In this document: piece after piece, positions 2,801 through 61,703 of the stretch | Numbering within the stretch: the first letter of the stretch is position 1 | How the letters are laid out: every line of letters starts with the position of its first letter | The notes under the pieces: model-generated | The model's database searches: none | The model's input: the letters and a program-made list of their open reading frames with translations, nothing else | What the model was told of the DNA's origin: nothing | Made by a program: the position numbers and the translations under genes | IMG/VR virus record: IMGVR_UViG_3300026512_000002 | Span: 62,001-126,000 of that record | Length of the DNA stretch: 64,000 nt | DNA from: a virus | Strand: one strand, 5' to 3'

Positions 2801-5707
2801 TTATACAACAACACCATCTATAGTAATAGTTATTTTGTCACATATACTATTAACATCACCAATATTACTATAGTTAACCCATGTATTGAAATCGGTACTA
2901 ATATTAATATTGAATCTATCATCGTTAAATTTTCTATAAGTTAATGATAACAATTTATCTTTCAAATCATTTAATATATTTGTGGTATTGTCGTTTAAAT
3001 TTTTATTTGGAATATCAACTCTATCAAAACCTCTGTTGATAAAGTATGTTTTAAGTTCATTATATCTCATATTTTTAATAATATTATATTCGTTATACAA
3101 TATGCTTATGATTAAAAATTTAAGCTGTATATCTCTATCATATACATAATCCTCAAGGTCATTATAATCATTTCTAAGATTATCCAATACAGTTTCATCA
3201 ACAAGCTTTTCTTCTGCTATAATATTTGTCATAGCCGATTTCTCACTATCTATTGAATCGGATAATGCTATAGCGTTGAAAACCCCCATATTGGTATACA
3301 TATCTACTTTGTCATTAACATATATATCTGTTATAACATCATCATAAATATCTTTATATGTGTAACCATTCAACTTATCACCATAATCCATAAATAATGT
3401 AATTAGTTGATCACCGCTCATATCTGTAATTTTATTATTTATATATTCGTCTAATTTATTAGCAATTGTTTTAATATATGCTTCATCATAAATAGCGTTA
3501 GCTGGTACTCCAAAATTAGTTTCTACATATTTTTTTAAATTAGCTATCATATTAACATTTTGGAGAGCATTATCATATATGTATGATAAGATATTATCTC
3601 TAAAATATTTTTTAATACGTGTTTTTAAAACATTTGTATCATACACATCATATCTATTATCACTCACTCTATCCATTAAGATAGTTTCTAATACCGGAAT
3701 AGGATCTAAACTAACATGTTCTTTTTCACGTATAATGTTATCCAACTTATCATATGTGAATATAGCTGGTTTAATTATATTACCAGCGTTATCTCGTTTA
3801 TAGTCTTTAACTAAGATATATTTAAAAACATTTAATGATGTTACATTGAACACGCTAAGTATTCTAGTAATAACGTCTGTTGTACCTCTTGTTTTAATTA
3901 AAAATTGTAAGTTTCGTATTATATCAATTTGATATATTTTAGGAATATTGTTGAATGTTGTTATCCCATGTGAATACAAAATATTTTTTAAATCACGCTC
4001 TGTCATAAATTCAGCTTTATATTCAAACTTATTATCCAAATCAATATATTTTAAAATAGCTGATATGATAATCAGATAGTTTACTAGGTCATCATAGTTA
4101 CTGTACATTTCGAATGCTTTATCATACATGGTTGTCATAAAATATCGCATTGTTTGATAGTAGGCTGTTAGAAATCTATTTAATTCAGCACTGTTGAGAA
4201 TGCTATTATCATAATGAACAATATATTTATCAGAATATGTTCTAAGTTTAGTTAGTTCGGCACCTCTCAACCACATCATTTTATAATACTCATTAGTTTC
4301 TCTATATATATTATATTTGTTTTCTTTAAACATTATAACTTTACTGTTTATTTTGAAACCATTTAAAATAGACTTATGTGTTAGCTCATCTAATGAACAA
4401 TAATTTATCAACTCGATGTCACCAGTTAGTATGGAATGACCAACTAACATGTAATTATATTTGAATGAAATATGATCAAATGTTGTTAAAATATTACCAC
4501 AGTTGTGACAAACATATTCTTTCACACCTAAATTATTATACTCTTCAACATACGGTGTGAAACATTTATCACAAACAGTATCTAGTTTATATGCTTTTAT
4601 ATTGTCGTAAGTAGAAATATTTCCCGAAACATAATATAGTTCCAGTGTCGAACGATCATAAGCTAGTTGAATAGTATTATTATTTTTATATATTTCACAT
4701 TTAATTTTACCATCATCGTATGTTTCATAAATAGCTTCATACTCATTAATGATAATATTTCTATAATAATCTTTTAATGTTACATTATTAGAAATATCTA
4801 ATATTATTTCATGTGATTTGTAGTATGGTGTATTATCAGCTATAATACTAGTATATGGTTTAATATAATTATAATTAATAGTTGGTTCTAATGTAGCTTC
4901 ATACTTATCAATTAACGTATAATTAACACCATCATATTTAAACACTCTAGTATCAGACATTTTTAAATCATACAATGTTTGTAAAGGAACATAGTCAAAC
5001 ATTCCTATATTTGCTTCTTTATAATATAATGCAGTAGCAACATCATATATTTCCAAATATACTGTATCTATAGAAGCGGTATATATTTCATAACCATTAC
5101 GTATAACATAATCAGTATACAATAGATCATTAGTGGTGTGGTTAAAAATCGCATCACATGTAGCTTTGTTATATTTATTATAAGTGTCAATTTTATAAAT
5201 ATCGTCATATGTCAATGATTCAGCATATGTTGCAACTCTATATATACCACCACTAGTTCTTTTAATATATATGTACTCGTATTCACTAGCAACATATTTG
5301 TCTATAGGTTTATAATAACCATTTTCTTTTACATATATTTTATCAGAATAAATTGTAGTATTATTCAAATATGTTTCGGAAGAAATTCTATTAAACCAAT
5401 CAGCAACATATCGTACACCAGCGTAACCATTTCTTTCATCATCATTCAGTTTTATAAAAACATTATTAGGATCATTGACATATAAACTATATCCATCAAT
5501 AATTGCTCTATTACTATATTTGATTTTATCAACATCGCTCATAATAAAACCGTCACCCAATACAGCAATATAATGTGATGCTCTAATATTAGACTCTTTA
5601 GTTTCAGCTAACATAGCTTTTTTTTCATTTTTTATGAGAATTGTTTTAGAAAAATTTATCAGATCTCTAAAAATTGATAAACCTTTTTCATACTTACGGT
5701 TATCCAT
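2801..5707 (-). CDS. Putative baseplate/tail structural protein, 968 aa
   Basis: A long Tyr/Asn/Asp-rich protein typical of jumbo-phage virion components. Residues about 370-405 hold a Cys4 zinc ribbon (CDKC then CHNC). Near residue 610 is the motif LIKTRGTTDVITRILSVF, which resembles the K(N/T)RGT..a...LL segment of phage baseplate and tail-P2-I-like proteins. That is the basis for the call; overall similarity was not tested. The ribosome site upstream of the ATG is weak. It stands alone on the minus strand with a convergent terminator downstream. Confidence 0.55.
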   Translation of the reverse strand: MDNRKYEKGLSIFRDLINFSKTILIKNEKKAMLAETKESNIRASHYIAVLGDGFIMSDVDKIKYSNRAIIDGYSLYVNDPNNVFIKLNDDERNGYAGVRYVADWFNRISSETYLNNTTIYSDKIYVKENGYYKPIDKYVASEYEYIYIKRTSGGIYRVATYAESLTYDDIYKIDTYNKYNKATCDAIFNHTTNDLLYTDYVIRNGYEIYTASIDTVYLEIYDVATALYYKEANIGMFDYVPLQTLYDLKMSDTRVFKYDGVNYTLIDKYEATLEPTINYNYIKPYTSIIADNTPYYKSHEIILDISNNVTLKDYYRNIIINEYEAIYETYDDGKIKCEIYKNNNTIQLAYDRSTLELYYVSGNISTYDNIKAYKLDTVCDKCFTPYVEEYNNLGVKEYVCHNCGNILTTFDHISFKYNYMLVGHSILTGDIELINYCSLDELTHKSILNGFKINSKVIMFKENKYNIYRETNEYYKMMWLRGAELTKLRTYSDKYIVHYDNSILNSAELNRFLTAYYQTMRYFMTTMYDKAFEMYSNYDDLVNYLIIISAILKYIDLDNKFEYKAEFMTERDLKNILYSHGITTFNNIPKIYQIDIIRNLQFLIKTRGTTDVITRILSVFNVTSLNVFKYILVKDYKRDNAGNIIKPAIFTYDKLDNIIREKEHVSLDPIPVLETILMDRVSDNRYDVYDTNVLKTRIKKYFRDNILSYIYDNALQNVNMIANLKKYVETNFGVPANAIYDEAYIKTIANKLDEYINNKITDMSGDQLITLFMDYGDKLNGYTYKDIYDDVITDIYVNDKVDMYTNMGVFNAIALSDSIDSEKSAMTNIIAEEKLVDETVLDNLRNDYNDLEDYVYDRDIQLKFLIISILYNEYNIIKNMRYNELKTYFINRGFDRVDIPNKNLNDNTTNILNDLKDKLLSLTYRKFNDDRFNINISTDFNTWVNYSNIGDVNSICDKITITIDGVVV

Positions 5708-6223: not shown

Positions 6224-6319
6224 ATCGTTTGTTAAAAATTAAAAAAAAAGTTAAATATATATTATACGTGTATATAGCAATATCGCTATACTTTAATTAT
6301 TCCGTAGGAGGAAATATGA
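6224..6319 (+). repeat. 96-bp leader repeat, copy 1
   Basis: This segment is identical to 7046-7141. It covers an A-rich stretch, the TATATATTA motif, a GCAATATCGC inverted element, the GTAGGAGGAAAT ribosome site and the start codon itself. Two different proteins are thus expressed from the same leader, pointing to recent duplication of an expression cassette. Confidence 0.9.
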
Positions 6320-6989: not shown

Positions 6990-7026
6990 GGGCAACGTTC
7001 TGTTGCCCGTCCCTCCCCTTTTTTTT
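6990..7026 (+). terminator. Intrinsic terminator, copy 1
   Basis: GGGCAAC, a five-base loop and GTTGCCC, followed by a C/T-rich stretch ending in eight T. The same hairpin and flanks recur at 7789-7829. Confidence 0.9.
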
Positions 7027-7045
7027 CTTTCTACATATATAATAT

Positions 7046-7141
7046 ATCGTTTGTTAAAAATTAAAAAAAAAGTTAAATATATATTATACGTGTATATAGC
7101 AATATCGCTATACTTTAATTATTCCGTAGGAGGAAATATGA
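7046..7141 (+). repeat. 96-bp leader repeat, copy 2
   Basis: Perfect copy of 6224-6319, ending in the start codon of the gene at 7138. It carries the putative promoter and ribosome site shared by both genes. Confidence 0.9.
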
Positions 7142-7782
7142 GAGATCAAATTATTGAATTATTAAGAAATGTAAAATGGCAACGTAGGCAGGATTATGAA
7201 CGCCTATTAAAATTAAAAAAAGAATACATTGATGATCAGATATATGATCATCAATGTCGTATAGAGAAAACTGAAAAAGATATCGTGCCATCATACGATA
7301 TCAATGATTACAAAATCACTAAATATAAAGATGAGTATGATGGCGGATACAGAAGTATATATGTGTCTAAAACATATATATACTTTCAACATGTTAAGTC
7401 GGGAAAAAGATTTTGTACCGACACAACATACGGTGAGGACTATGCTAGAAAGCATGCCAAGGACATAGTCCAAGGACATCTAAATTTTCGAAAAACTCAA
7501 GATTTGGAAGATCTTGAGTTTATTAAAAAATGGAAAGAACGAATACCTATATTATCAAAAGTATATTATTATGTATATGGTGCTAATATAGATCGTGCTA
7601 AAAATATAGAAATATATTTTCATAACATAGCAATATCTATCACACGAAATTGTTATGATTATGAATATATTTTAGAAATAGAAAATGTCGAAAAAATGAA
7701 CATAGTCAAAGCGCCCGAAGTTAAAGGGCTCACTAATCAAGAAGCATTTCAAATAATTAGTGTTTTCAATAAGCGTTTCTAA
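7138..7782 (+). CDS. Hypothetical protein with hairpin-rich coding sequence, 214 aa
   Basis: Starts MRDQIIELLRNVKWQRRQ at the end of the 96-bp leader repeat, after GTAGGAGGAAAT. The N-terminus (to about residue 50) looks like a charged helix; no family is recognised. The coding DNA is unusual: CATTGATGATCA/TGATCATCAATG (12 bp), GATATCGT/ACGATATC, GTATATAT/ATATATAC, GGACTATG/CATAGTCC and CTCAAGAT/ATCTTGAG all form short-loop hairpins within the gene. Its 3' end and terminator are duplicated in truncated form at 6926. It precedes two more genes of the same hairpin-rich type. Confidence 0.7.
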   Translation: MRDQIIELLRNVKWQRRQDYERLLKLKKEYIDDQIYDHQCRIEKTEKDIVPSYDINDYKITKYKDEYDGGYRSIYVSKTYIYFQHVKSGKRFCTDTTYGEDYARKHAKDIVQGHLNFRKTQDLEDLEFIKKWKERIPILSKVYYYVYGANIDRAKNIEIYFHNIAISITRNCYDYEYILEIENVEKMNIVKAPEVKGLTNQEAFQIISVFNKRF

Positions 7783-7788
7783 ATATCA

Positions 7789-7829
7789 GGGCAACGTTCT
7801 GTTGCCCGTCCCTCCCCTTTTTTTTTTCT
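7789..7829 (+). terminator. Intrinsic terminator, copy 2
   Basis: GGGCAAC/GTTGCCC hairpin followed by a long T run, identical in stem to the terminator at 6990. Confidence 0.9.
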
Positions 7830-7906
7830 TTCTACATATATAATATATCGTTATGAAGATTTATTTAAATATATATTATATATATAATATCTTTATAGGA
7901 GGAAAT

Positions 7907-8389
7907 ATGAAAAAAGATATTAAAATATCCTCCTGGGAGGATATTAAACAAAAAAGATCCATAAGGAACGTTCTTATGGATCTTTTAAAAAAAATAGAAG
8001 GACGGGCGTATCCTTCTATTTACCAATCATTTACCAGTTTTACTCAATGGTCAGATTTCGAAGACTATTGTGAAACTAGTAGAATTATCGTCCTATGGGA
8101 CGATAATAAAGATTGGTATTTGCTTTTAGGGATTAGTGGTCGTTCCTTAGAAGTGATTGATTTAGCCTCATTACGAGGTTTAAGTCATATTAATATGGAA
8201 GAACTTTTAAAAAAGTTCTTTTTAATATTAAAAGACCATAATATTGAAAAAATTTTAATGGATATGAGGGAAACCACCTCATATAAATTCATTAAGATTT
8301 TTGATAATAATATTTGGAAAATTATTAAAGACCAATCATATGATTGGGAAGGTGAAATTTTCCATGATATTATTATCAGAAAAAGATAA
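7907..8389 (+). CDS. Hypothetical protein with hairpin-saturated coding sequence, 160 aa
   Basis: The ATG at 7907 follows TATAGGAGGAAAT; an in-frame ATG at 7853 lacks a site. The product begins MKKDIKISSWEDIKQKRS and is not recognised; its C-terminal half has a faint GNAT-like look, which is speculation. The gene is a chain of hairpins: AATATCCTCC/GGAGGATATT, AAAAGATCCATAAG/CTTATGGATCTTTT (14 bp), AAATAGAAGGA/TCCTTCTATTT (11 bp), ATTATCGTCC/GGACGATAAT (10 bp), ATATGAGG/CCTCATAT and a 16-base palindrome at 8332. The stop codon lies inside a 12-bp hairpin. Confidence 0.7.
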   Translation: MKKDIKISSWEDIKQKRSIRNVLMDLLKKIEGRAYPSIYQSFTSFTQWSDFEDYCETSRIIVLWDDNKDWYLLLGISGRSLEVIDLASLRGLSHINMEELLKKFFLILKDHNIEKILMDMRETTSYKFIKIFDNNIWKIIKDQSYDWEGEIFHDIIIRKR

Positions 8390-8407
8390 ACGCCCTTATC
8401 TTTTTCT
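8378..8407 (+). terminator. Stop-codon-spanning 12-bp hairpin
   Basis: AGAAAAAGATAA pairs with TTATCTTTTTCT around ACGCCC. The 5' arm contains the stop codon of the preceding gene. It ends in a T-rich arm rather than a separate T tract. Confidence 0.6.
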
Positions 8408-8415
8408 GTGTTCCC

Positions 8416-8499
8416 AAAAAAAAAGGCAGCTATTCATATTCATATTCATATTATTATTTTTTAGTGATCTTTTTTAATATCGCTGCCTTTTTTTTTTAT
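8416..8499 (+). terminator. Long-loop terminator with ATTCAT repeats
   Basis: An A run plus GGCAGC (8425-8430) pairs with GCTGCC (8482-8487) followed by a T run. The intervening 51 bases are AT-only-like and include three copies of TATTCA. It lies between the gene ending at 8389 and the large structured RNA region. Confidence 0.65.
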
Positions 8500-8584
8500 A
8501 TACTACATATATAATATATATTTATATATATAGTATATACGCATACTATGTATATATATTATGCGTATATATATATACATATAT

Positions 8585-9062
8585 AAGTTGGCATATAAGA
8601 GATATCTCACCCTAGATGGGTAGCTAACAAGTATATGTATAAATTTTAAGTAGAGGACTAGTGGGCATTGCCAAAGGGCGTGATGCATTATAAGCATTAA
8701 GACTACAAATACTACTACTTAACGTCACCTTAACGTTACTAGGGAGACTAAAGCAAAAAAGAGTCTATAAATATATTCACCGTCTAGAGGGAGACGTAAA
8801 AATATCATAACTAGGAAAATTGGTCACCGTGGAGAGCGTAGTTGACAATTTCCTATGTTCCCTGATTAGGAGTACACTATTATCCTATAATAAAGAATAG
8901 TGAAAGGCGTTAGAAGGAGTAAGTAACGCTGAAGTCGAAACAATCTTTATACTGGAGGAGTATAAGTTATAGTAGGCGCAATCCATGATAGTTTCATCAT
9001 GGCGGTATATAGGTCAACATATATATCGATATAATGTAAATCTGAGACTAATATAGGAGGTT
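8585..9062 (+). ncRNA. Large structured RNA candidate (leader of the 802-aa gene or stand-alone)
   Basis: About 480 bases without a plausible ORF but full of helices: CGTCT/AGACG (8781-8796), a long bulged helix 8812-8826/8842-8855, CACTATT/AATAGTG (8875-8902), GGCGTTA/TAACGCT (8906-8930), TTATACT-GGAGG-AGTATAA (8947-8965) and CCATGAT/ATCATGG (8983-9002). Composition is less AT-rich than ordinary intergenic DNA here. It runs up to the ribosome site of the gene at 9065. It has the size and density of the large ornate phage RNAs (GOLLD and ROOL classes), but membership in either is not established. Confidence 0.6.
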
Positions 9063-9064
9063 AT

Positions 9065-11473
9065 ATGTCCAGGTTTATGAGAAAAAAACAAGAGATCGAG
9101 TATGAAATCGCAGCGTACACTAGCGATGGAATGCTCGATCTCAATGACGCTATGCAAGTATCTCAATGTCGAGATAGTATAGTGTCTGTTAGAGAGAATC
9201 TTAAAAGATCCAAAGTATTTTGGGGAGAGGCTCTCTTAACACAGTTTCTAGATGCTGTGTCTAAAAAAACATCTAAATCGTTCTTTAGTGTATTCACATT
9301 AGAGAGCGAGGTCCCCTTACTAAAAGACATGTTAGGGTGGCCAGTGAACTATGCTGAAGTAGTTCACTATGCGGAAGTGAGGTGGAATTCGCAGTTAGTA
9401 ACACCTTCGAAGAGAAGATTTTATCCGAAGGATGCTGCTAATTATTACTACGATTTTGCAAATCTTAGTGATAAACCTTATTCAATAAATTTCTTAGCTA
9501 AAGACATTAGTAAGGTTAAGAATTTATTGAACATCTGGGCCGAAAACCATGGCCGGACTGCTACTATGGTAGATGTAGCAGAATTCTTTACTTTTGTACG
9601 GAGTAGAGAAATGGTAAGTAAAAGAGCTATGAAAAAACTCTTTTACTTTAAGGTTGTCCAAACCTTAAAATTGGACAATAGACTTTTAGAAAGCGAATTT
9701 AAGTTAGGAAATAAATTTGCTGTATACGAGTCTACTAAATTTGATCTTCGATTACTATTCACCACTTTTGGTGGTGATGTAGGAATGGTAAAAGATGCAT
9801 TAGCATATGTCCACAAGCTAATGCGTGATTATAATGTAGAAAGTTATAATTACGGAGAACAAATTTGGGGACTATTTTCGCATGTAGATTGGTATTATTA
9901 TACCGTGATACTGCGAAATCGTCCAACAACAAATGTGGACGGACTATGTACAACCCTTTATAAACTTAGAGACGCCTCTAGTAGGATCGAAAAGTTTAAA
10001 AAGGAAATAGTTAAATTCATTAGAATTCCTGAATTTTCGAATTTAGAAGATGATTTTAACTGTTATTATTTCCAAGACAGATATTTGTCTCGGAAATATG
10101 TGAACATAGTTCAAAAAAAGATAGCAGAAACAAACTCATTGTTACCCGCAGTGAAAGTTTTTGCTAATCTTGATATACCTAGATCTGAATTCTCCAATTC
10201 AGTATATGGGTATATAAAATTCCTAAGTAAAAAGAGTATATCAGAAAAAGCAACTACGATATACTCAAATTACTTAGGTAGAAGACCTAGTGTCGATCTC
10301 GGCAAAGGTATGGAGCATGGTTATAATTATATGGCCAAAAGTTCTATCCTGAGAAAGATCTTAGGCATGATAGATAATAAAGCCGCTTGGAAGGTTTTTA
10401 CATCTATTATAAAGTCCTTTAGGAAAGCTAACCCCGGCACAGTTGTCGAGGAACATGCTATTTTAGGGGCGCTTAGTATAGCTGATATTTTTGGTACTGC
10501 TTGGAAAAGCACCTTACCAAAAACAGCTAACGAAAATGGAAAACTTGTAATAGAACAACCTTCTATTACTTGGTTGAACAATTTCGGGTTGCAGTATAAT
10601 GGAACTGCAACTGCTGAGGAAAAAGTCCTTATGAGTAATATCTTGAAAAAGAGAAAAACTTATAAGGCTTCTGGAAACAATATTTCAATATTGGAGAGTG
10701 ACCTAGAGTTCTTCTCAAAAATACTGGAAAGGAGTTTCAAGAATAAAAAACTTATAATATCCAAATTAGGAAATAATCCTAAATTAAAGGATATTGTAAG
10801 TATACTTGATGCCGTTTTATATCCGGGATTAAGTATTGAAGTTGGCTATTGGGCTAGCCAATTTTCATTATCTGTAGATGATGCAGAATATTTGCAAAAA
10901 TTTATGGATACAAATGATTACTTTAAAAACTATGAAGACTTGTCTATAAAGACTAGTAATAATAGTTATAAAGTATCAAAGAGCGGCTATAGTATAGTCC
11001 GTCTCTTAGCCCACGACACAGAAGGTGCTGTATTGGGTAAACACACCGGTTGTTGTCAACACCTGCAAGGTGCAGCTGATAGTTCTGTTAGATATGGCTA
11101 CAAACAATCTAACAGCTTCTTCTTTAAGGTTTTAAATAAATCTAATGAAGTTGTGGCTATAAGTTGGGCCTGGGTGGATAGTAAAAGTAATCTTGTTTTC
11201 GACAATGTAGAACGAAAACATGGAAGTGATGTAGCTAATATCATTGATATAGTTGCAGAATATGCTTTCACTTTTGCTGGAAGATTTAATTCTGTCCAAA
11301 TAGGTCTTGGATTTGGGGGTTATATCTTCGATGGCTTGAATGAAAAGTTCGCACCGGTACTATCATCGGATATGGGAACTTTTCTTATTGGCAATCCTTA
11401 TACGGATGCTGCTAATAGTAGAGTATATTTGGTCCCTCCAAGGGGAGCCTTATATGCTAAAGCCATCATATAA
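9065..11473 (+). CDS. 802-aa protein of unknown function, hairpin-saturated gene
   Basis: Starts MSRFMRKKQEIEYEIAAYTS after ATAGGAGGTTAT. The first about 600 residues are helical with no recognised domain. The C-terminal 170 residues contain LGKHTGCCQHL (near residue 657), then FFFKVLNKSNEVVAISWAWVD and VFDNVE, a beta-strand pattern reminiscent of acyltransferase-like (GNAT) folds with an added Cys pair; this is inference. The coding DNA is a nearly unbroken series of RNA hairpins from end to end, for example 9343-9368, 9616-9648, 10222-10278 (two nested helices), 10547-10569, 10750-10801 and 11085-11115. Base composition is visibly richer in G and C than most neighbours. Confidence 0.75.
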   Translation: MSRFMRKKQEIEYEIAAYTSDGMLDLNDAMQVSQCRDSIVSVRENLKRSKVFWGEALLTQFLDAVSKKTSKSFFSVFTLESEVPLLKDMLGWPVNYAEVVHYAEVRWNSQLVTPSKRRFYPKDAANYYYDFANLSDKPYSINFLAKDISKVKNLLNIWAENHGRTATMVDVAEFFTFVRSREMVSKRAMKKLFYFKVVQTLKLDNRLLESEFKLGNKFAVYESTKFDLRLLFTTFGGDVGMVKDALAYVHKLMRDYNVESYNYGEQIWGLFSHVDWYYYTVILRNRPTTNVDGLCTTLYKLRDASSRIEKFKKEIVKFIRIPEFSNLEDDFNCYYFQDRYLSRKYVNIVQKKIAETNSLLPAVKVFANLDIPRSEFSNSVYGYIKFLSKKSISEKATTIYSNYLGRRPSVDLGKGMEHGYNYMAKSSILRKILGMIDNKAAWKVFTSIIKSFRKANPGTVVEEHAILGALSIADIFGTAWKSTLPKTANENGKLVIEQPSITWLNNFGLQYNGTATAEEKVLMSNILKKRKTYKASGNNISILESDLEFFSKILERSFKNKKLIISKLGNNPKLKDIVSILDAVLYPGLSIEVGYWASQFSLSVDDAEYLQKFMDTNDYFKNYEDLSIKTSNNSYKVSKSGYSIVRLLAHDTEGAVLGKHTGCCQHLQGAADSSVRYGYKQSNSFFFKVLNKSNEVVAISWAWVDSKSNLVFDNVERKHGSDVANIIDIVAEYAFTFAGRFNSVQIGLGFGGYIFDGLNEKFAPVLSSDMGTFLIGNPYTDAANSRVYLVPPRGALYAKAII

Positions 11474-11475
11474 AA

Positions 11476-11509
11476 AAAAAGAAAGGGTGAAAACCCTTTC
11501 TTTTTTTTA
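11476..11509 (+). terminator. Intrinsic terminator
   Basis: GAAAGGGT/ACCCTTTC around GAAA, followed by eight or more T residues, directly after the 802-aa gene. The A run upstream lets it work toward the minus strand as well. Confidence 0.9.
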
Positions 11510-11552
11510 TATATAATTGTAACAATTTTACCAACCTACTATAATCATATAC

Positions 11553-28594: not shown

Positions 28595-29593
28595 ATGAAA
28601 ACATTATTTAATTTATTATTGGTAGTATCATTATTTATTATTAGTTGTGGTGAGAGCGTTACAACAACTGATAATAACCATCAAGCTGAACCACAAGAAA
28701 ACAATGTCTGTGTAGAGGGAGATTGTGGAGGACATGGTGTATGTTATATTGAAAATACTAAACCAATATGTGTCTGTGATGAAGGATATGTATTTTTTAA
28801 AGGGTATTGTGTAGAACATAAAGAACCTTCAACATGTGATAACATACAATGTGATGAAGGTTCATATTGCGTAGATCTAGGGTCAACATATACTTGTGAA
28901 TGCAAGGTTGGTTATCATTCTGATGATAATAATGTTTGCGTAAAAAACGCAACATGTTTAGATACAACATGTGATGTTAATAAACATTGTATAGTTGTTG
29001 ATTATGAAAACACTAAATGTGTATGTGATAATAGTTATGTAGAACACGATGGAGAATGTATATCTGTGAACAATGATCCATGTGTAAACAACCCATGTAT
29101 AGAAGATAACACTATATGTAGTAGAATTGATGAATATAGATATAATTGCGATTGTGCACAGGGTTATGAAAAAGATCTAAATAATAATTGTGTGGAAATA
29201 TGTGAACCATACATAAATGAATGGTCACCTGATAGAATTGGAAATATAGTATCTATTAAATATATACACAATATCATATGTAGTGAAAGATATACTGTTG
29301 TAAAAGAATTTGATATTAGTAATAGCGATAATGTTTTTATTAGCGACCAGATCTCTATAAACATATATACTAGTACTAGCAATATAACTGATCAACAGTA
29401 TTTAGATACATATATTTTAGTAACTTTAGATGGTATACCAGAACCTATACGAGTTCAAAGCGATTATCCAGGCAATATAAATTTTCATTTTGACAATCCT
29501 GATAATAGACCTATTGTTAAAATAGAATGGTATATTATTAATATTGTTAATAGGCCCGTATCATTTAGTTTGGGAATCTGTTTAGTCGACTAA
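28595..29593 (+). CDS. EGF-like-module lipoprotein, 332 aa
   Basis: Residues 1-18 are a lipoprotein signal with lipobox FIISC (lipidated Cys18). Residues about 36-200 hold four Cys6 modules of EGF type, with C.....GVC, CVCDEGYVF, CECKVGYHS and CDCAQGYEK phrases. The C-terminal 130 residues are a beta-rich domain with two Cys. The protein is predicted to be exported and anchored in an envelope, exposing the EGF repeats. EGF arrays are common in animals and in some predatory or complex bacteria and rare in phages, so it may derive from the host and alter the infected-cell surface. The start follows TTAGGAGGAAAT; a GGGGG hairpin terminates. Confidence 0.8.
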   Translation: MKTLFNLLLVVSLFIISCGESVTTTDNNHQAEPQENNVCVEGDCGGHGVCYIENTKPICVCDEGYVFFKGYCVEHKEPSTCDNIQCDEGSYCVDLGSTYTCECKVGYHSDDNNVCVKNATCLDTTCDVNKHCIVVDYENTKCVCDNSYVEHDGECISVNNDPCVNNPCIEDNTICSRIDEYRYNCDCAQGYEKDLNNNCVEICEPYINEWSPDRIGNIVSIKYIHNIICSERYTVVKEFDISNSDNVFISDQISINIYTSTSNITDQQYLDTYILVTLDGIPEPIRVQSDYPGNINFHFDNPDNRPIVKIEWYIINIVNRPVSFSLGICLVD

Positions 29594-36258: not shown

Positions 36259-36349
36259 TTATAAATTAAAAAAAAAACTATTGAAAAAAAAATATTATAA
36301 AAACTTGCAATCATACCAATTAATATGATAATATGTCTATAATCACCTC

Positions 36350-36865
36350 GATTATTATATAGTCGAGATAAAAAGGAAGCTTAGATATATACGGTTTTCT
36401 TGATGAAACAATCTTTACCGATAAAGATTGTGTGTTAGTTTCTAAGGGTTTGTATAAGCTTCAACCTGCTAGCATAATCAAGGTATGCATGAGAGCTATT
36501 GGGCACATATATAACATAGCACTATTATGTGTCACGCTCATATCCCGTCCTGTTCTATTATAGAAGATGTGGTGATATTGTTCATAGTGTGATTATATGA
36601 ACATACTTTAAAGGCAGACCTTGCAGTATATTAATATCACACACATTCCCTCGATTAGGGGGATGTGCTATACTCAGATTTTAAACTTTAATAAAATACA
36701 TTAATATTTATAAGATTAAGCCTGTAAGGCTTAGTATTATAAATATGGGTGTGTGGTAATAAAGTAGTGGAAATGTAAATGTTGGTAGCCCGGCTTCTTA
36801 AAAAGCAAGGGCTTGAAACATTGGAATGAGAACGGATACTGATTAAATCCAACATATATTTCAAT
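36350..36865 (+). ncRNA. Large structured RNA candidate
   Basis: The 739 bases between the beta' piece and the SbcD-like gene hold no plausible ORF but about 500 bases of dense pairing: CTCGA/TCGAG, GAAGCTTA/TAAGCTTC (36376-36383/36455-36462) enclosing ACAATCTTT/AAAGATTGT (36408-36431), ATGAG/CTCAT enclosing CACATA/TATGTG, a bulged helix near 36568-36579/36633-36643 enclosing GTTCATA/TATGAAC, CCCT/AGGG near 36650, TAAGCCT/AGGCTTA (36717-36733), and ATGTTGG/CCAACAT closing a domain from about 36777 to 36857. Size and organisation suggest a large ornate RNA. It is not recognisably RNase P RNA, tmRNA or a group I intron. Confidence 0.6.
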
Positions 36866-40047: not shown

Positions 40048-40584
40048 TTAGTAGATTTTACTTTTTTTAAGCTCAATAATTTTTTTAATAATATTTTTTT
40101 TTATTCCATATCTGTTCCAATAATCTCTAATCAAATTAGTTGTGGTTAACAACTTTATTTGATTATTATCAGATAAGAAACATTTACTAATATATTTTTC
40201 TACTAACTTTGGTGTAGTTAGTAATTTTTGCTCAGCCTCATCCGATAGGGTATGTACTTCCGAATATTTTATTATTAGTTCCTGTGTAGTTAGTAGTTTT
40301 ATTTGATTTTCATCTGATAAAGGATACCAGATGATATACTTTTCTACTAACTCTGGTGTAGTTAGTAGTTTCTGTTCAGCTTCCTCTGACAAGCTATATC
40401 TTTTAATATATTTTTCTACTAACTTTGGTGTAGTTAGTAGTTTCTGTTCAGCCTCATCTGATAATGCATATCTTTCGATATACTTTGAGACCAATGTTGT
40501 TGTTAATAATAATTTTAACTGGTCTCTTTCTAATAGTTCATGTTTGTAGATACATTCTTTTTCGATTTTTTTTAAGTTGTTCAT
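40048..40584 (-). CDS. 24-residue-repeat protein, 178 aa
   Basis: About six copies of a 24-residue unit with core (E/N)(A/Q)(E/I)(Q/K)LLTTPKLVEKYI.(R/K)Y.LSD, followed by a capping segment IIKKIIELKK. It is the same repeat as in the three plus-strand genes 42196-46300, placed in the opposite orientation. The units look alpha-helical and should build a solenoid. Function is not known. TTGGAGGAAAT precedes the start. Confidence 0.8.
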   Translation of the reverse strand: MNNLKKIEKECIYKHELLERDQLKLLLTTTLVSKYIERYALSDEAEQKLLTTPKLVEKYIKRYSLSEEAEQKLLTTPELVEKYIIWYPLSDENQIKLLTTQELIIKYSEVHTLSDEAEQKLLTTPKLVEKYISKCFLSDNNQIKLLTTTNLIRDYWNRYGIKKNIIKKIIELKKSKIY

Positions 40585-46764: not shown

Positions 46765-46934
46765 TTTTAAATATAAGTTGTGTTATTTTAAAATATTTTA
46801 TTTATTTTTTAATGTTTGATGAATATTATTAAAATCGTAATACTATAACATATACTTATATATTATAGTATTGAGTCATAATAATGTGACTCGTAGTGCC
46901 AGCTATTCTGGTTAATTTTATTTTGGAGGTCATT

Positions 46935-47156
46935 ATGGCTAAAAAAATAAATTATCATTCTTTTATTAAGATGGTTGAGAAAAACCATCTTGTAGAAGAA
47001 TGGTTCGCGACTGGTGTCGCAATTGCTTGTACTGAAAAATGTGCAAGTAATTGCGACATAGCCAATGTGGGGAGGTATGTTAATTGTGCCGCCCCATGGC
47101 GTGCCGGTCGCGAATTTATTGAAAAGAAATTAGGGGTGATCGTAATAGACGATTAA
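46935..47156 (+). CDS. Cys-rich small protein, hairpin-saturated gene, 73 aa
   Basis: Start MAKKINYHSFIKMVEKNH after TTGGAGGTCATT. The protein has Cys residues in ACTEKCASNCD and VNCAAPW; no family recognised. The whole gene folds: AAGATGGTT/AACCATCTT, GTCGCAATT with CTTG pairing to CAAG and AATTGCGAC, GCCA+TGGGG with CCCCA+TGGC, and GAAAAGAAATTAGGG with the 3' sequence CCCTAGTTTCTTTTC, which includes the stop region. The 5' leader also folds (GAGTCA/TGACTC). Composition is richer in G and C than neighbours. Confidence 0.65.
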   Translation: MAKKINYHSFIKMVEKNHLVEEWFATGVAIACTEKCASNCDIANVGRYVNCAAPWRAGREFIEKKLGVIVIDD

Positions 47157-47290
47157 CCCTAGTTTCTTTTCCTGGTAGTCGACAGCTACCATGAGTCAAA
47201 AAATGATGTCACGCTCAACCCGGAGCGGAAAAGAGATAGGGTATACAACCACACTATGTGGTTGGAAAGAAACCATTAGGTTTCTTTTTT
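47155..47290 (+). ncRNA. Structured 3' region with switch-like alternative pairing and terminator
   Basis: The element CCCTAGTTTCTTTTCC (about 47157-47172) can pair upstream with GAAAAGAAATTAGGG inside the gene or downstream with GGAAAAGAGATAGGG. Inside the second fold are GGTAG/CTACC and GCTC/GAGC hairpins, making a multi-branch RNA of about 85 bases. Then CAACCACA/TGTGGTTG and the terminator AAAGAAACC-ATTA-GGTTTCTTT plus T run (47266-47292) follow. It may be a processed small RNA or a regulatory 3' UTR. Confidence 0.5.
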
Positions 47291-47391
47291 TTTAATTTAA
47301 TAAATAATTTGGATATATATTAATACCATAATAACATATATAGTTATTATAATGTCTATCTTGTTTCGATCTATGTTTATATGGAGGTTTT

Positions 47392-49653: not shown

Positions 49654-50252
49654 TTTAATTCCTTATGTGTTATTATTGAAAAATTTTCTACTTTTGATAT
49701 AAGTTTATTGAATTTAGCAACCATATCTTTTGTTATAGCCGGTCTATACATGGATATTAGTGACATAATGTCTCCAAAAAACATGTCTTTAGAAATATTG
49801 AAATCATCAACATCATATAATTGGTGTATTGTGGTTGTTAGAGGAACAATACCAACTAAATTATTAATATGCAAACCTATAACCTCAGCAGCTATAGTAT
49901 ATGTTGAAAATTTATTTTTATTTATCATATTATTTATAATCACTATTTTAACTATATCATACAATGTGAATGGGTAGTGGTGCATCTCAACAGCAACGTT
50001 AGTTTCATCACCACCCATGTTTGGTAACACAGCACATGTTGTCAGCCCAACAGTTTCTTTTAAATACCTTATATATGCTGTATATTTTTTAGATGTCCGA
50101 ACCATTTTTTCAACAGCTTTAATAACAGTATGTAGTTTTTTTTCATTTGTTATATTTGTCATATAATAACTCAATACATTGTTATTATCAGTATTTATCA
50201 ATACAGTATTATTGGCTACATTAAGAGATGTTATATTATCTTTATTACCCAT
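49650..50252 (-). CDS. HH(Y/H)PFTL(Y/F)DIV-family protein, 200 aa
   Basis: Contains VEMHHYPFTLYDIVKIVII (near 88-107) and VIGLHINNLVGIVPLTTTIHQLYDVDDFNI (near 125-155). The same two motifs occur in the plus-strand protein at 61761, so they are diverged paralogues. The HH...H pattern and 'LVGIVPL..T.H' recall HNH-type nuclease cores, but this is inference; a structural role is equally possible given its operon. Overlaps the next gene by four bases. Confidence 0.65.
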   Translation of the reverse strand: MGNKDNITSLNVANNTVLINTDNNNVLSYYMTNITNEKKLHTVIKAVEKMVRTSKKYTAYIRYLKETVGLTTCAVLPNMGGDETNVAVEMHHYPFTLYDIVKIVIINNMINKNKFSTYTIAAEVIGLHINNLVGIVPLTTTIHQLYDVDDFNISKDMFFGDIMSLISMYRPAITKDMVAKFNKLISKVENFSIITHKELK

Positions 50253-52662: not shown

Positions 52663-52693
52663 TATAGTATACGACTTAGTTTAATTGATAAAA

Positions 52694-52730
52694 AAAAGAA
52701 TGGGAATAGTTGTAACAACTGCTTCCCTTT
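52694..52730 (-). terminator. Intrinsic terminator (minus strand)
   Basis: GGGAA plus AGTTG pair with CAACT plus TTCCC, and on the minus strand the stem is followed by a T run. Terminates the structured unit containing the gene at 52856. Confidence 0.75.
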
Positions 52731-52855
52731 ACAATATCCATTACAACAAAACAGATACGGTATCAGCTATTCTTTATAGCTCCTTTGTGGTGTTACCACT
52801 AACGCCTATTACTGCGAATCCCTATTAGTTGCCGGAATTAAGCGTTTATCAATCA

Positions 52856-53221
52856 TTACATGTTGTTGATTGATTTTGTTCCACCTAATGATATGAACAT
52901 TGGGGTATTTAACCCGTCATCACTATCAGTACCCTGGAAAGGGTTGACAATGACTTCCTGTTCATTCACAATGTAAACAACACCTTTTTTCAAAGGTAGT
53001 AAATGGGCTTGTACGTTTCCATTTACTATGCCGAATGAAAATTCGGCTGTTGATATCATTGTGATATCATCAGGCGCTACTACATAGTTGCCTGGCTGAA
53101 GATGAAATCTTCTAGCACTCGCAATTATTATTGCGGCAACTACATGTAGTAGGCATTCCTCATTACTCATGAGGTGCCTTAAGTTCATATTCCTAGTTTT
53201 CATATTCATTGCGTAACACAC
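52856..53221 (-). CDS. Hypothetical protein, hairpin-saturated gene, 121 aa
   Basis: MCYAMNMKTRNMNLRHLMSN; several ATGs lie close together and no strong ribosome site decides between them. The product has a beta-rich middle (FHLQPGNYVVAPDDITMIS) and is not recognised. The DNA is hairpin after hairpin: GTAAATGG/CCATTTAC, GCCGAAT-GAAA-ATTCGGC, GATATCA/TGATATC, GAAGAT/ATCTTC, ACCTTT/AAAGGT, AGGCA+CCTCA/TGAGG+TGCCT. A structured leader and 3' region flank it, ending in the terminator near 52700. Confidence 0.6.
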   Translation of the reverse strand: MCYAMNMKTRNMNLRHLMSNEECLLHVVAAIIIASARRFHLQPGNYVVAPDDITMISTAEFSFGIVNGNVQAHLLPLKKGVVYIVNEQEVIVNPFQGTDSDDGLNTPMFISLGGTKSINNM

Positions 53222-53224
53222 AAC

Positions 53225-53465
53225 TCATAATCCAACCTTCTATCCGAACTTAGCGTAAATCACTCCCCAATGGAACTATTACGTCTACCCAGCATTAAGT
53301 TTTACATCTATGCTGGCTTTAGATAGATGTTTGTAGTTGTAAATTAACATGATCGTTGACTATCATGCTCAAACATTTACGGATCATATAAAACGATCAC
53401 CTCGTATATATGTCCTACTACAACACCTTAATATATGTTTAAATATAGCTATTATGCTATCATGT
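53225..53465 (-). ncRNA. Structured leader of the 52856 gene
   Basis: About 240 bases with ACATCTAT/ATAGATGT, CATGAT/ATCATG, and a CCAGCAT/ATGCTGG helix that competes with the first because it shares bases. The arrangement permits two folds, as in riboswitch-type leaders. No ligand class is recognised. Confidence 0.45.
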
Positions 53466-61046: not shown

Positions 61047-61703
61047 ATGAAGAATTTTTCAATTATGATTGGTGATAATATTATGAAAACAATTCAACAA
61101 GGATTGAATATGTTGAATATCAATACCATTACTAATAAAATCGATGATCTGAATACAGATGTCGAGGATTTATTAATAGCTTCAGAAAACATGTTTAAAA
61201 CACATGTTATATCTCAAGCTGCAGTTCGAGTCAAACAAGGTTATATGCTCGTAACTTTGTTTGAAAATGGTAAAGTAGATATTCACATCAATAATATTGA
61301 GGAAGTGGATATGGATTTATTAAAATTAATGGTTTTTGAAACTATTGATTTTAGTAATTTTAAAATTGCTAAAACAGATGCAAAATTAATAGGTTTAATT
61401 AAACCTATTAATGTAAAAAAAGTTGTAGGCGGCGGATATGTCGTTGTTGACAACGAACATGTGTATTTGATCAATAAAAATGATCAAATATTAAAATTTA
61501 AAAAAAACAATATAAAGACAAAAGGAGGTGTTATATATAAACACAACCGAAGAGGTCGAAAGTTTGACGCCTCTGTATCTTTGTATAAAGATGATGATAA
61601 TCAAATATATCTTGAACTATATTCGAAAGTTCAAGATATATTTAATGTTCTTTCAGAGTTAAAAAGTGATGTTTATTGCGGATTATTAGCAATGAACATT
61701 TAA
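61047..61703 (+). CDS. Hypothetical protein, hairpin-saturated gene, 218 aa
   Basis: MKNFSIMIGDNIMKTIQQGL after TTGGAGGAAAT. Not recognised; middle region VGGGYVVVDNEHVYLINK. Coding DNA is packed with perfect stems: TCAAACAAGGTTA/TAACTTTGTTTGA (61231-61264, 13 bp), a 28-base perfect palindrome at 61385-61412, AAATATATCTTGAACT/AGTTCAAGATATATTT (61603-61643, 16 bp) and others. Ends in a 14-bp terminator. It belongs to the hairpin-rich gene set though it lies in the replication cluster. Confidence 0.7.
   Translation: MKNFSIMIGDNIMKTIQQGLNMLNINTITNKIDDLNTDVEDLLIASENMFKTHVISQAAVRVKQGYMLVTLFENGKVDIHINNIEEVDMDLLKLMVFETIDFSNFKIAKTDAKLIGLIKPINVKKVVGGGYVVVDNEHVYLINKNDQILKFKKNNIKTKGGVIYKHNRRGRKFDASVSLYKDDDNQIYLELYSKVQDIFNVLSELKSDVYCGLLAMNI

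Follow-up and report, generated by a model that had tools for sequence, protein, structure and literature searches.

Why would a DNA phage keep the coding RNA of a protein gene folded over its entire length? The question is raised by an 802-amino-acid ORF in the window analysed here, a stretch of 64,000 nucleotides that corresponds to positions 62001-126000 of a 227,696-base phage record (IMGVR_UViG_3300026512_000002). The phage carries genes for a phage-type multi-subunit RNA polymerase. The original prediction, made from the letters alone, held that the gene is folded end to end into nested helices, and that protein and RNA are both under selection. The features of the locus are the following, in window coordinates.

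7003..7782, plus strand: upstream gene with a likely start at 7138, of no family, with folded mRNA (z -7.6; shuffle folding, family search)
7853..8389, plus strand: partner gene with a likely start at 7907, encoding a small GNAT-like protein (homology, shuffle folding)
8416..8497, no strand assigned: terminator-like inverted repeat AAAAAAAAAGGCAGC ... GCTGCCTTTTTTTTTT between the unit and the upstream gene (sequence, fold)
8498..8583, plus strand: AT-rich, promoter-like stretch with a long palindrome and a putative promoter role (sequence, fold)
8584..9064, plus strand: noncoding 5' leader of 481 nt with many predicted hairpins (fold, Rfam search)
9055..9060, plus strand: Shine-Dalgarno sequence AGGAGG (sequence, context)
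9065..11473, plus strand: the 802-amino-acid ORF, its coding RNA forming local hairpins over the full length (ORF list, shuffle folding, stem counts)
10910..11449, plus strand: C-terminal CCQH domain, residues 616-795, with a predicted GNAT-like fold, common to all homologues (profile, alignment, model)
11045..11062, plus strand: TGCCQH motif, residues 661-666 (alignment)
11474..11514, plus strand: intrinsic-terminator-like hairpin AAAGAAAGGGT GAAA ACCCTTTCTTT that closes the unit (sequence, fold)

Folding was compared, in windows of 150 nt moved in steps of 75 nt, with shuffles that permute synonymous codons and keep the protein, the codon usage and the base composition. All 31 windows of 9065-11473 lie below the shuffle mean (z -1.3 to -7.0), so that folding over the whole length, as predicted, is borne out. 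The mean energy is -40.6 kcal/mol, compared to -26.7 kcal/mol in the synonymous shuffles (z -17, and z -19 in a second run), and the 802-codon ORF lies 13.6 kcal/mol per 150 nt below them; excess stability along the gene is thus strong. Perfect Watson-Crick stems of at least 8 bp within 150 nt occur 18 times in the ORF, a number that synonymous versions do not match (20 shuffles, mean 5.8, maximum 9). For the gene as a whole, the minimum free energy is -796, compared to -520 in shuffles (sd 12), and 69% of the bases are paired in the predicted fold. The nine arm pairs quoted in the prediction were all found in place, and all recur in this fold. Pairing is predominantly local, with a median span of 27 nt (38 nt in shuffles), and only 3% of the pairs span more than 150 nt (17% in shuffles). 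The gene is therefore folded end to end, but a chain of local hairpins describes it better than nested helices. The sense strand is clearly more folded than the antisense strand (-13.6 versus about -9.5). The start region is also folded (z -6), and is less open than the gene body. The permutation of synonymous codons rules out an artefact of composition or codon use, and the same shuffles, together with the unfolded long homologues described below, rule out that the amino acid sequence drives the folding.

The folding is exceptional in its surroundings. A composition-regression scan of the whole record detects a few folded islands, against a background that is otherwise ordinary (median window z -0.3). 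The largest island, at about 7150-11500 of the window, comprises the 802-amino-acid gene and the two genes upstream of it. As only about 5% of the 205 ORFs of at least 75 amino acids pass a comparable folding cut, a genome-wide property of this phage is ruled out. A general feature of large phages is ruled out as well, since none of 78 genes of T4, phiKZ and AR9 falls below -5.1 kcal/150 nt, compared to -13.6 for the window gene and -19.6 (z -11) for the partner gene at 7853-8389. In the window phage, GC3 is 0.27 in folded genes versus 0.19. Folded genes have fewer G-U pairs than their shuffles. Of 13 folded genes compared, 10 have a start region whose openness equals or exceeds the body mean, and most have a Shine-Dalgarno sequence; translation is therefore expected.

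Besides the 802-amino-acid gene, the partner gene and several others of this phage are folded. The phage also has a structured RNA frame in two copies, at 52690-53465 of the window (minus strand) and at L003 9170-9870 (G000 28670-29370). The copies are 99.6% identical over 249 nt on the 5' side and 88% identical over 158 nt on the 3' side. The ORFs that they enclose, of 121 and 88 amino acids, are alike only over the first 19 residues and otherwise unrelated, and both are strongly folded (z -10 to -11). The frame has no match to an Rfam family, and a search of other viral contigs for a DNA motif specific to it was negative.

At the CCQH locus, the overall stability of the leader is not unusual (z -1.3). 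The search of leader and gene against Rfam returned nothing at the gathering threshold, the sub-threshold matches being AT-rich repeats and the terminator. A Group I or Group II intron, or another catalogued structured RNA in leader or gene, was dismissed for want of a match at curated thresholds. The partner gene is homologous to a small gene that adjoins the CCQH gene in L013 and L025, and a stretch similar to its protein is fused C-terminally in L017 and L032, with a weak GNAT match in L032. Neighbourhood and fusion together suggest that the CCQH protein and its small GNAT-like partner probably work together. Further upstream, an identical 96-nt stretch occurs at 6224-6319 and 7046-7141 of the window, preceding two adjacent genes. 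A related stretch also precedes the gene at 7907, and the arrangement reads as a duplicated promoter or leader region.

The protein itself is new. It has no Pfam match above cut-off, no PHROG and no meaningful PDB sequence match. In a direct search, the only named relatives were proteins of MaMV-group cyanophages, over the C-terminus. The full-length protein found no match among viral contigs, and only profiles of the C-terminal domain gathered relatives, from viral and bacterial contigs. A plasmid search was negative, and a search with the polymerase gene found no sister phage that would supply a close relative of the window gene for covariation. The CCQH domains have a TxCCQ(H) motif and a W / FDN / E pattern in common. 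Across 11 aligned domains, T, C, C and Q of the motif are invariant, and the final H is missing only in L017. Structure prediction was poor for the full-length protein (pLDDT 43), with a badly modelled N-terminus, and usable for the C-terminal domain alone, for which the model, of moderate quality, has a GNAT fold (within the modelled piece, residues 20-120 reach a pLDDT of about 85). The PDB structural matches listed for this model are overwhelmingly GNATs (best E 2e-5, TM 0.3-0.5), and a BFVD search returned several PcfJ-named phage proteins (E 4e-4 to 9e-4). We therefore describe the C-terminus as a domain of predicted GNAT fold that is PcfJ-like and carries a TxCCQH motif. The likeness to GNAT acetyltransferases lies in the predicted fold, and a GNAT Pfam match is absent from the window protein. 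Likewise, PcfJ-like proteins (PF14284) are similar in their GNAT-type fold and by name among the structural matches, but the PcfJ Pfam profile matches neither the window protein, nor other CCQH members, nor anything in the whole record, and the TxCCQH motif is the CCQH family's own. Aphanizomenon phage CL131 gp131, which has a middle region in common with the MaMV protein, shows a weak PcfJ match near its C-terminus, below the cut-off. As among the polyvalent proteins encoded by phages and conjugative elements (PMC5512222), long multi-domain forms exist in the CCQH family, some with a GNAT-like domain; the folded CCQH forms are stand-alone proteins of about 600-800 amino acids.

The distinction between stand-alone and longer forms matters for the folding. 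The coding mRNA is strongly folded in nine of ten distinct stand-alone homologues, the window gene included. In kcal/150 nt below shuffles, the values are -18.2 for L025, -17.5 for L016, -13.6 for the window gene, -10.8 for MaMV-DH01, -9.9 for L028, -8.9 for L019, -8.1 for L013, -7.0 for L023 (identical to the Pseudarcicella contig L053 and counted once) and -6.8 for L018. The tenth, L054, is weakly folded (-3.1). All 11 longer homologues, of about 860-1960 amino acids, some cut by contig ends, and from phage as well as bacterial contigs, are unfolded (-1.0 to -2.2; Mann-Whitney p 1e-4 for short versus long, not corrected for ancestry). In a weakly supported domain tree, in which the window protein sits on a very long branch, the short forms do not form one clade; well-supported branches force at least two changes, and three to four are usual in bootstraps, a result that is indicative. 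Folding is thus a property of the CCQH family in its stand-alone form, and it recurs across unrelated phages. The short forms are phage accessory genes and the long forms are mostly found on bacterial contigs, so that length as a predictor of folding may be a proxy for the carrier.

The family members differ in detail. In L016 and L023, the folded CCQH gene lies amid ordinary neighbours. In the MaMV group, several genes that adjoin the CCQH gene or lie close to it, and that belong to no known family, are folded too (L014 17672-25302; also in L018, L020 and L029). One of them, L014:24964-25302, gave the impression of an ADP-ribosyltransferase-like protein, a candidate dropped for lack of a Pfam match. 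The start region is folded also in L016 and MaMV, and in MaMV it is less open than the body. In several members, the antisense strand is nearly as folded as the sense strand. L016 has a closed, GC-rich structured leader at 3351-3465, which ends just ahead of an open ribosome-binding site. In L013, a gene for a MYG1-type exonuclease (PF03690) at 113-1000 lies beside the CCQH gene and has folded mRNA (z -6.8), which is a lead only as regards shielding from RNases. Microcystis phage LMM01 (L041) has no annotated CCQH gene, and positions 49798-50094 of its record match the final 95 residues of the MaMV protein. The gene that adjoins this stretch, MAP_065, is strongly folded (-10.0).

Selection could be followed among close relatives of the homologous cyanophage gene (as distinct from the window gene) in MaMV, L018, L019 and L028, with a nucleotide identity of about 0.87. 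The dN/dS among them is 0.23-0.35, which shows purifying selection on the protein. Re-dealing the codon changes between two relatives to positions that share the source codon makes the fold decay, whereas the real sequences retain it in all 12 ordered comparisons (z -1.3 to -8.9), which are not independent. With re-dealing confined to blocks of 80 codons, the fold is still better kept in 12 of 12 comparisons, and within blocks of 40 codons in 11 of 12. The covariation suggested as a check on the original prediction is weak at the level of pairs: strong pair covariation was sought and not found, about half of the one-sided changes keep the pair and two-sided changes are few. Derived mismatches favour G-U over A-C (190:156, p 0.08, and 188:150, p 0.04, in counts that are not independent), which points only modestly to the sense RNA. 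Taken together, the dN/dS, the folding of nine of the ten stand-alone members and the twelve fold-keeping comparisons support the predicted dual selection on protein and RNA. In view of the weak covariation, selection appears to act on foldedness in general rather than on one fixed architecture.

What could foldedness be good for? We tentatively favour, at somewhat less than an even chance, that the transcript of the 802-amino-acid gene is an armoured mRNA shielded from ribonucleases, a mechanism that we infer from the pattern of folding. The gene product would be an accessory phage protein, helical at the N-terminus and with a PcfJ-like domain of GNAT fold, and a small GNAT-like protein would be its probable partner. 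The transcript of the gene is probably monocistronic and about 2.9 kb long, beginning at the promoter-like stretch ahead of 8584 and ending at the terminator near 11512. Selection would favour short, stable hairpins of local span all along the coding region, with the ribosome-binding region left comparatively open in most homologues. The benefit would be shielding from single-strand-specific ribonucleases; the candidates are decay enzymes of the host, anti-phage defences that cut RNA, and an RNase of the phage itself that is active at the time. The outcome would be an mRNA that lives long or withstands defences, and that encodes a takeover or counter-defence protein. Hairpins that are short, dense and replaceable, and that have no strong fixed architecture, are better explained by protection than by a specific RNA machine. 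Several observations count against the proposal, namely the weak folding of L054 (-3.1), the confinement of folding to few genes per phage, the leader that is not unusually stable, and the difference in carriers between short forms (phages) and long forms (mostly bacterial contigs).

The main rival is slowed translation, which we regard as unlikely. The hairpins would hold back ribosomes or initiation, either to keep a potentially toxic or assembly-sensitive protein low or to pace its folding. In the window gene, the start is folded and more closed than the body, which speaks for slow initiation as much as for protection. Folded starts in the window gene, L016 and MaMV, of which the first and last are less open than the body, run against the usual trend in dsDNA phages, which normally reduce structure near the start codon (PMC3072339). 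However, a throttle would need structure at the start and not 2.4 kb of hairpins, hairpins with a span of about 27 nt are of the sort that ribosomes unwind, and 10 of 13 folded genes have a start no less open than the body. It is rather less likely that the RNA itself is functional or a packaged body, be it as a dual-function mRNA or as cargo of a large GOLLD/ROOL-like frame, compacted to fit or to spare the frame. The twofold occurrence of one frame with different folded ORFs inside, the other folded ORF units of the phage and the 481-nt leader of the CCQH gene would agree with this, as would the known organisation of GOLLD and ROOL, large structured phage RNAs in which conserved parts surround a variable linker within a cage (PMC12286853). 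On the other side, the CCQH gene lacks a frame 3' of it, neither conserved architecture nor strong covariation is seen, and there is no Rfam match and no frame motif in the other viral contigs searched. A broader version, doubtful to a slightly greater degree, is that some phage protein-gene transcripts are dual molecules, both translatable mRNA and compact RNA body, some of them exchangeable cargo in frames or delivered RNA; the two-copy frame would be one form and the long CCQH mRNA another.

The remaining explanations place the cause in the DNA. Folding could be the by-product of template switching during replication, which makes or re-perfects short palindromes. The hairpins are short in span and rich in Watson-Crick pairs (also in the L016 sequence), several members fold almost as strongly on the antisense strand, and correction of one arm by the other could mimic maintenance of the fold. 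This origin nevertheless seems improbable, a shade more so than dual molecules, because few genes are affected while ordinary neighbours are replicated in the same genomes, because the longer homologues lack the folding, and because the sense strand of the window phage is clearly more folded and the changes lean to G-U. By far the least probable is a function of the DNA or of single-stranded DNA along the gene, such as an origin, a packaging signal or cruciforms. The antisense strand folds well too, but folding tracks the gene boundaries and the CCQH family, the window phage has a sense bias, and there is no fixed motif. Still, the modest strand asymmetry and the scarcity of G-U pairs relative to shuffles keep a cause at the DNA level in play, and to that extent weigh against an armoured mRNA.

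The closest parallel is found in RNA virus genomes with ordered structure, in which coding RNA is also folded throughout, with many local stem-loops and selection on foldedness. There, whole genomes are concerned, whereas here it is single transcripts of dsDNA phages and one stand-alone gene family. The window gene thus resembles GORS on a single mRNA, but is not a member, as it belongs to a dsDNA phage with about 5% of its ORFs folded. The frame at 52690-53465 has the same layout as GOLLD and ROOL, conserved parts around a variable middle. It differs in that it has no covariance-model match and that its middle is a strongly folded ORF; the CCQH gene is without a comparable 3' part. In searches of open-access literature, we found no report of whole-length ordered RNA structure as a property of particular DNA phage genes. 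What the analysis adds to the original prediction is the family-level property of the stand-alone form, its recurrence across unrelated phages, and foldedness as the apparent target of selection. A family that is folded in unrelated phages and not in its longer homologues offers a natural comparison for the function of folded coding regions, with nuclease resistance, translation control and a role of the RNA as the candidate uses. If the mRNA is indeed armoured, RNA decay or RNA-cutting defence would exert pressure on specific phage transcripts, and the folded genes would illustrate how long-lived mRNAs are designed in nature.

Further folded units were noted in the window phage. At 46858-47320 of the window, a stand-alone unit has an 86-amino-acid ORF within near-continuous helices (ORF z -12) and a 3' noncoding part that is also folded (z -7). 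Another folded unit (z -11), from L002 19350-20000 to about G000 20160, consists of a hairpin-rich leader, an ORF of 130 amino acids and a terminator. Folded RNAs without a convincing ORF lie between genes at 36330-36700 of the window (z -3.4; no Rfam match at the gathering threshold) and at L002 13770-14090 (z -5.1). The gene at 61047-61703 of the window, for a protein of 218 amino acids and no family, has a folded mRNA (z -12, -15.2 kcal/150 nt). Finally, the mRNA for a protein of repeated LSDEAEQKLLTTPKLVEKYI-like units, encoded at 40048-40584 (minus strand), is folded as well (z -6).
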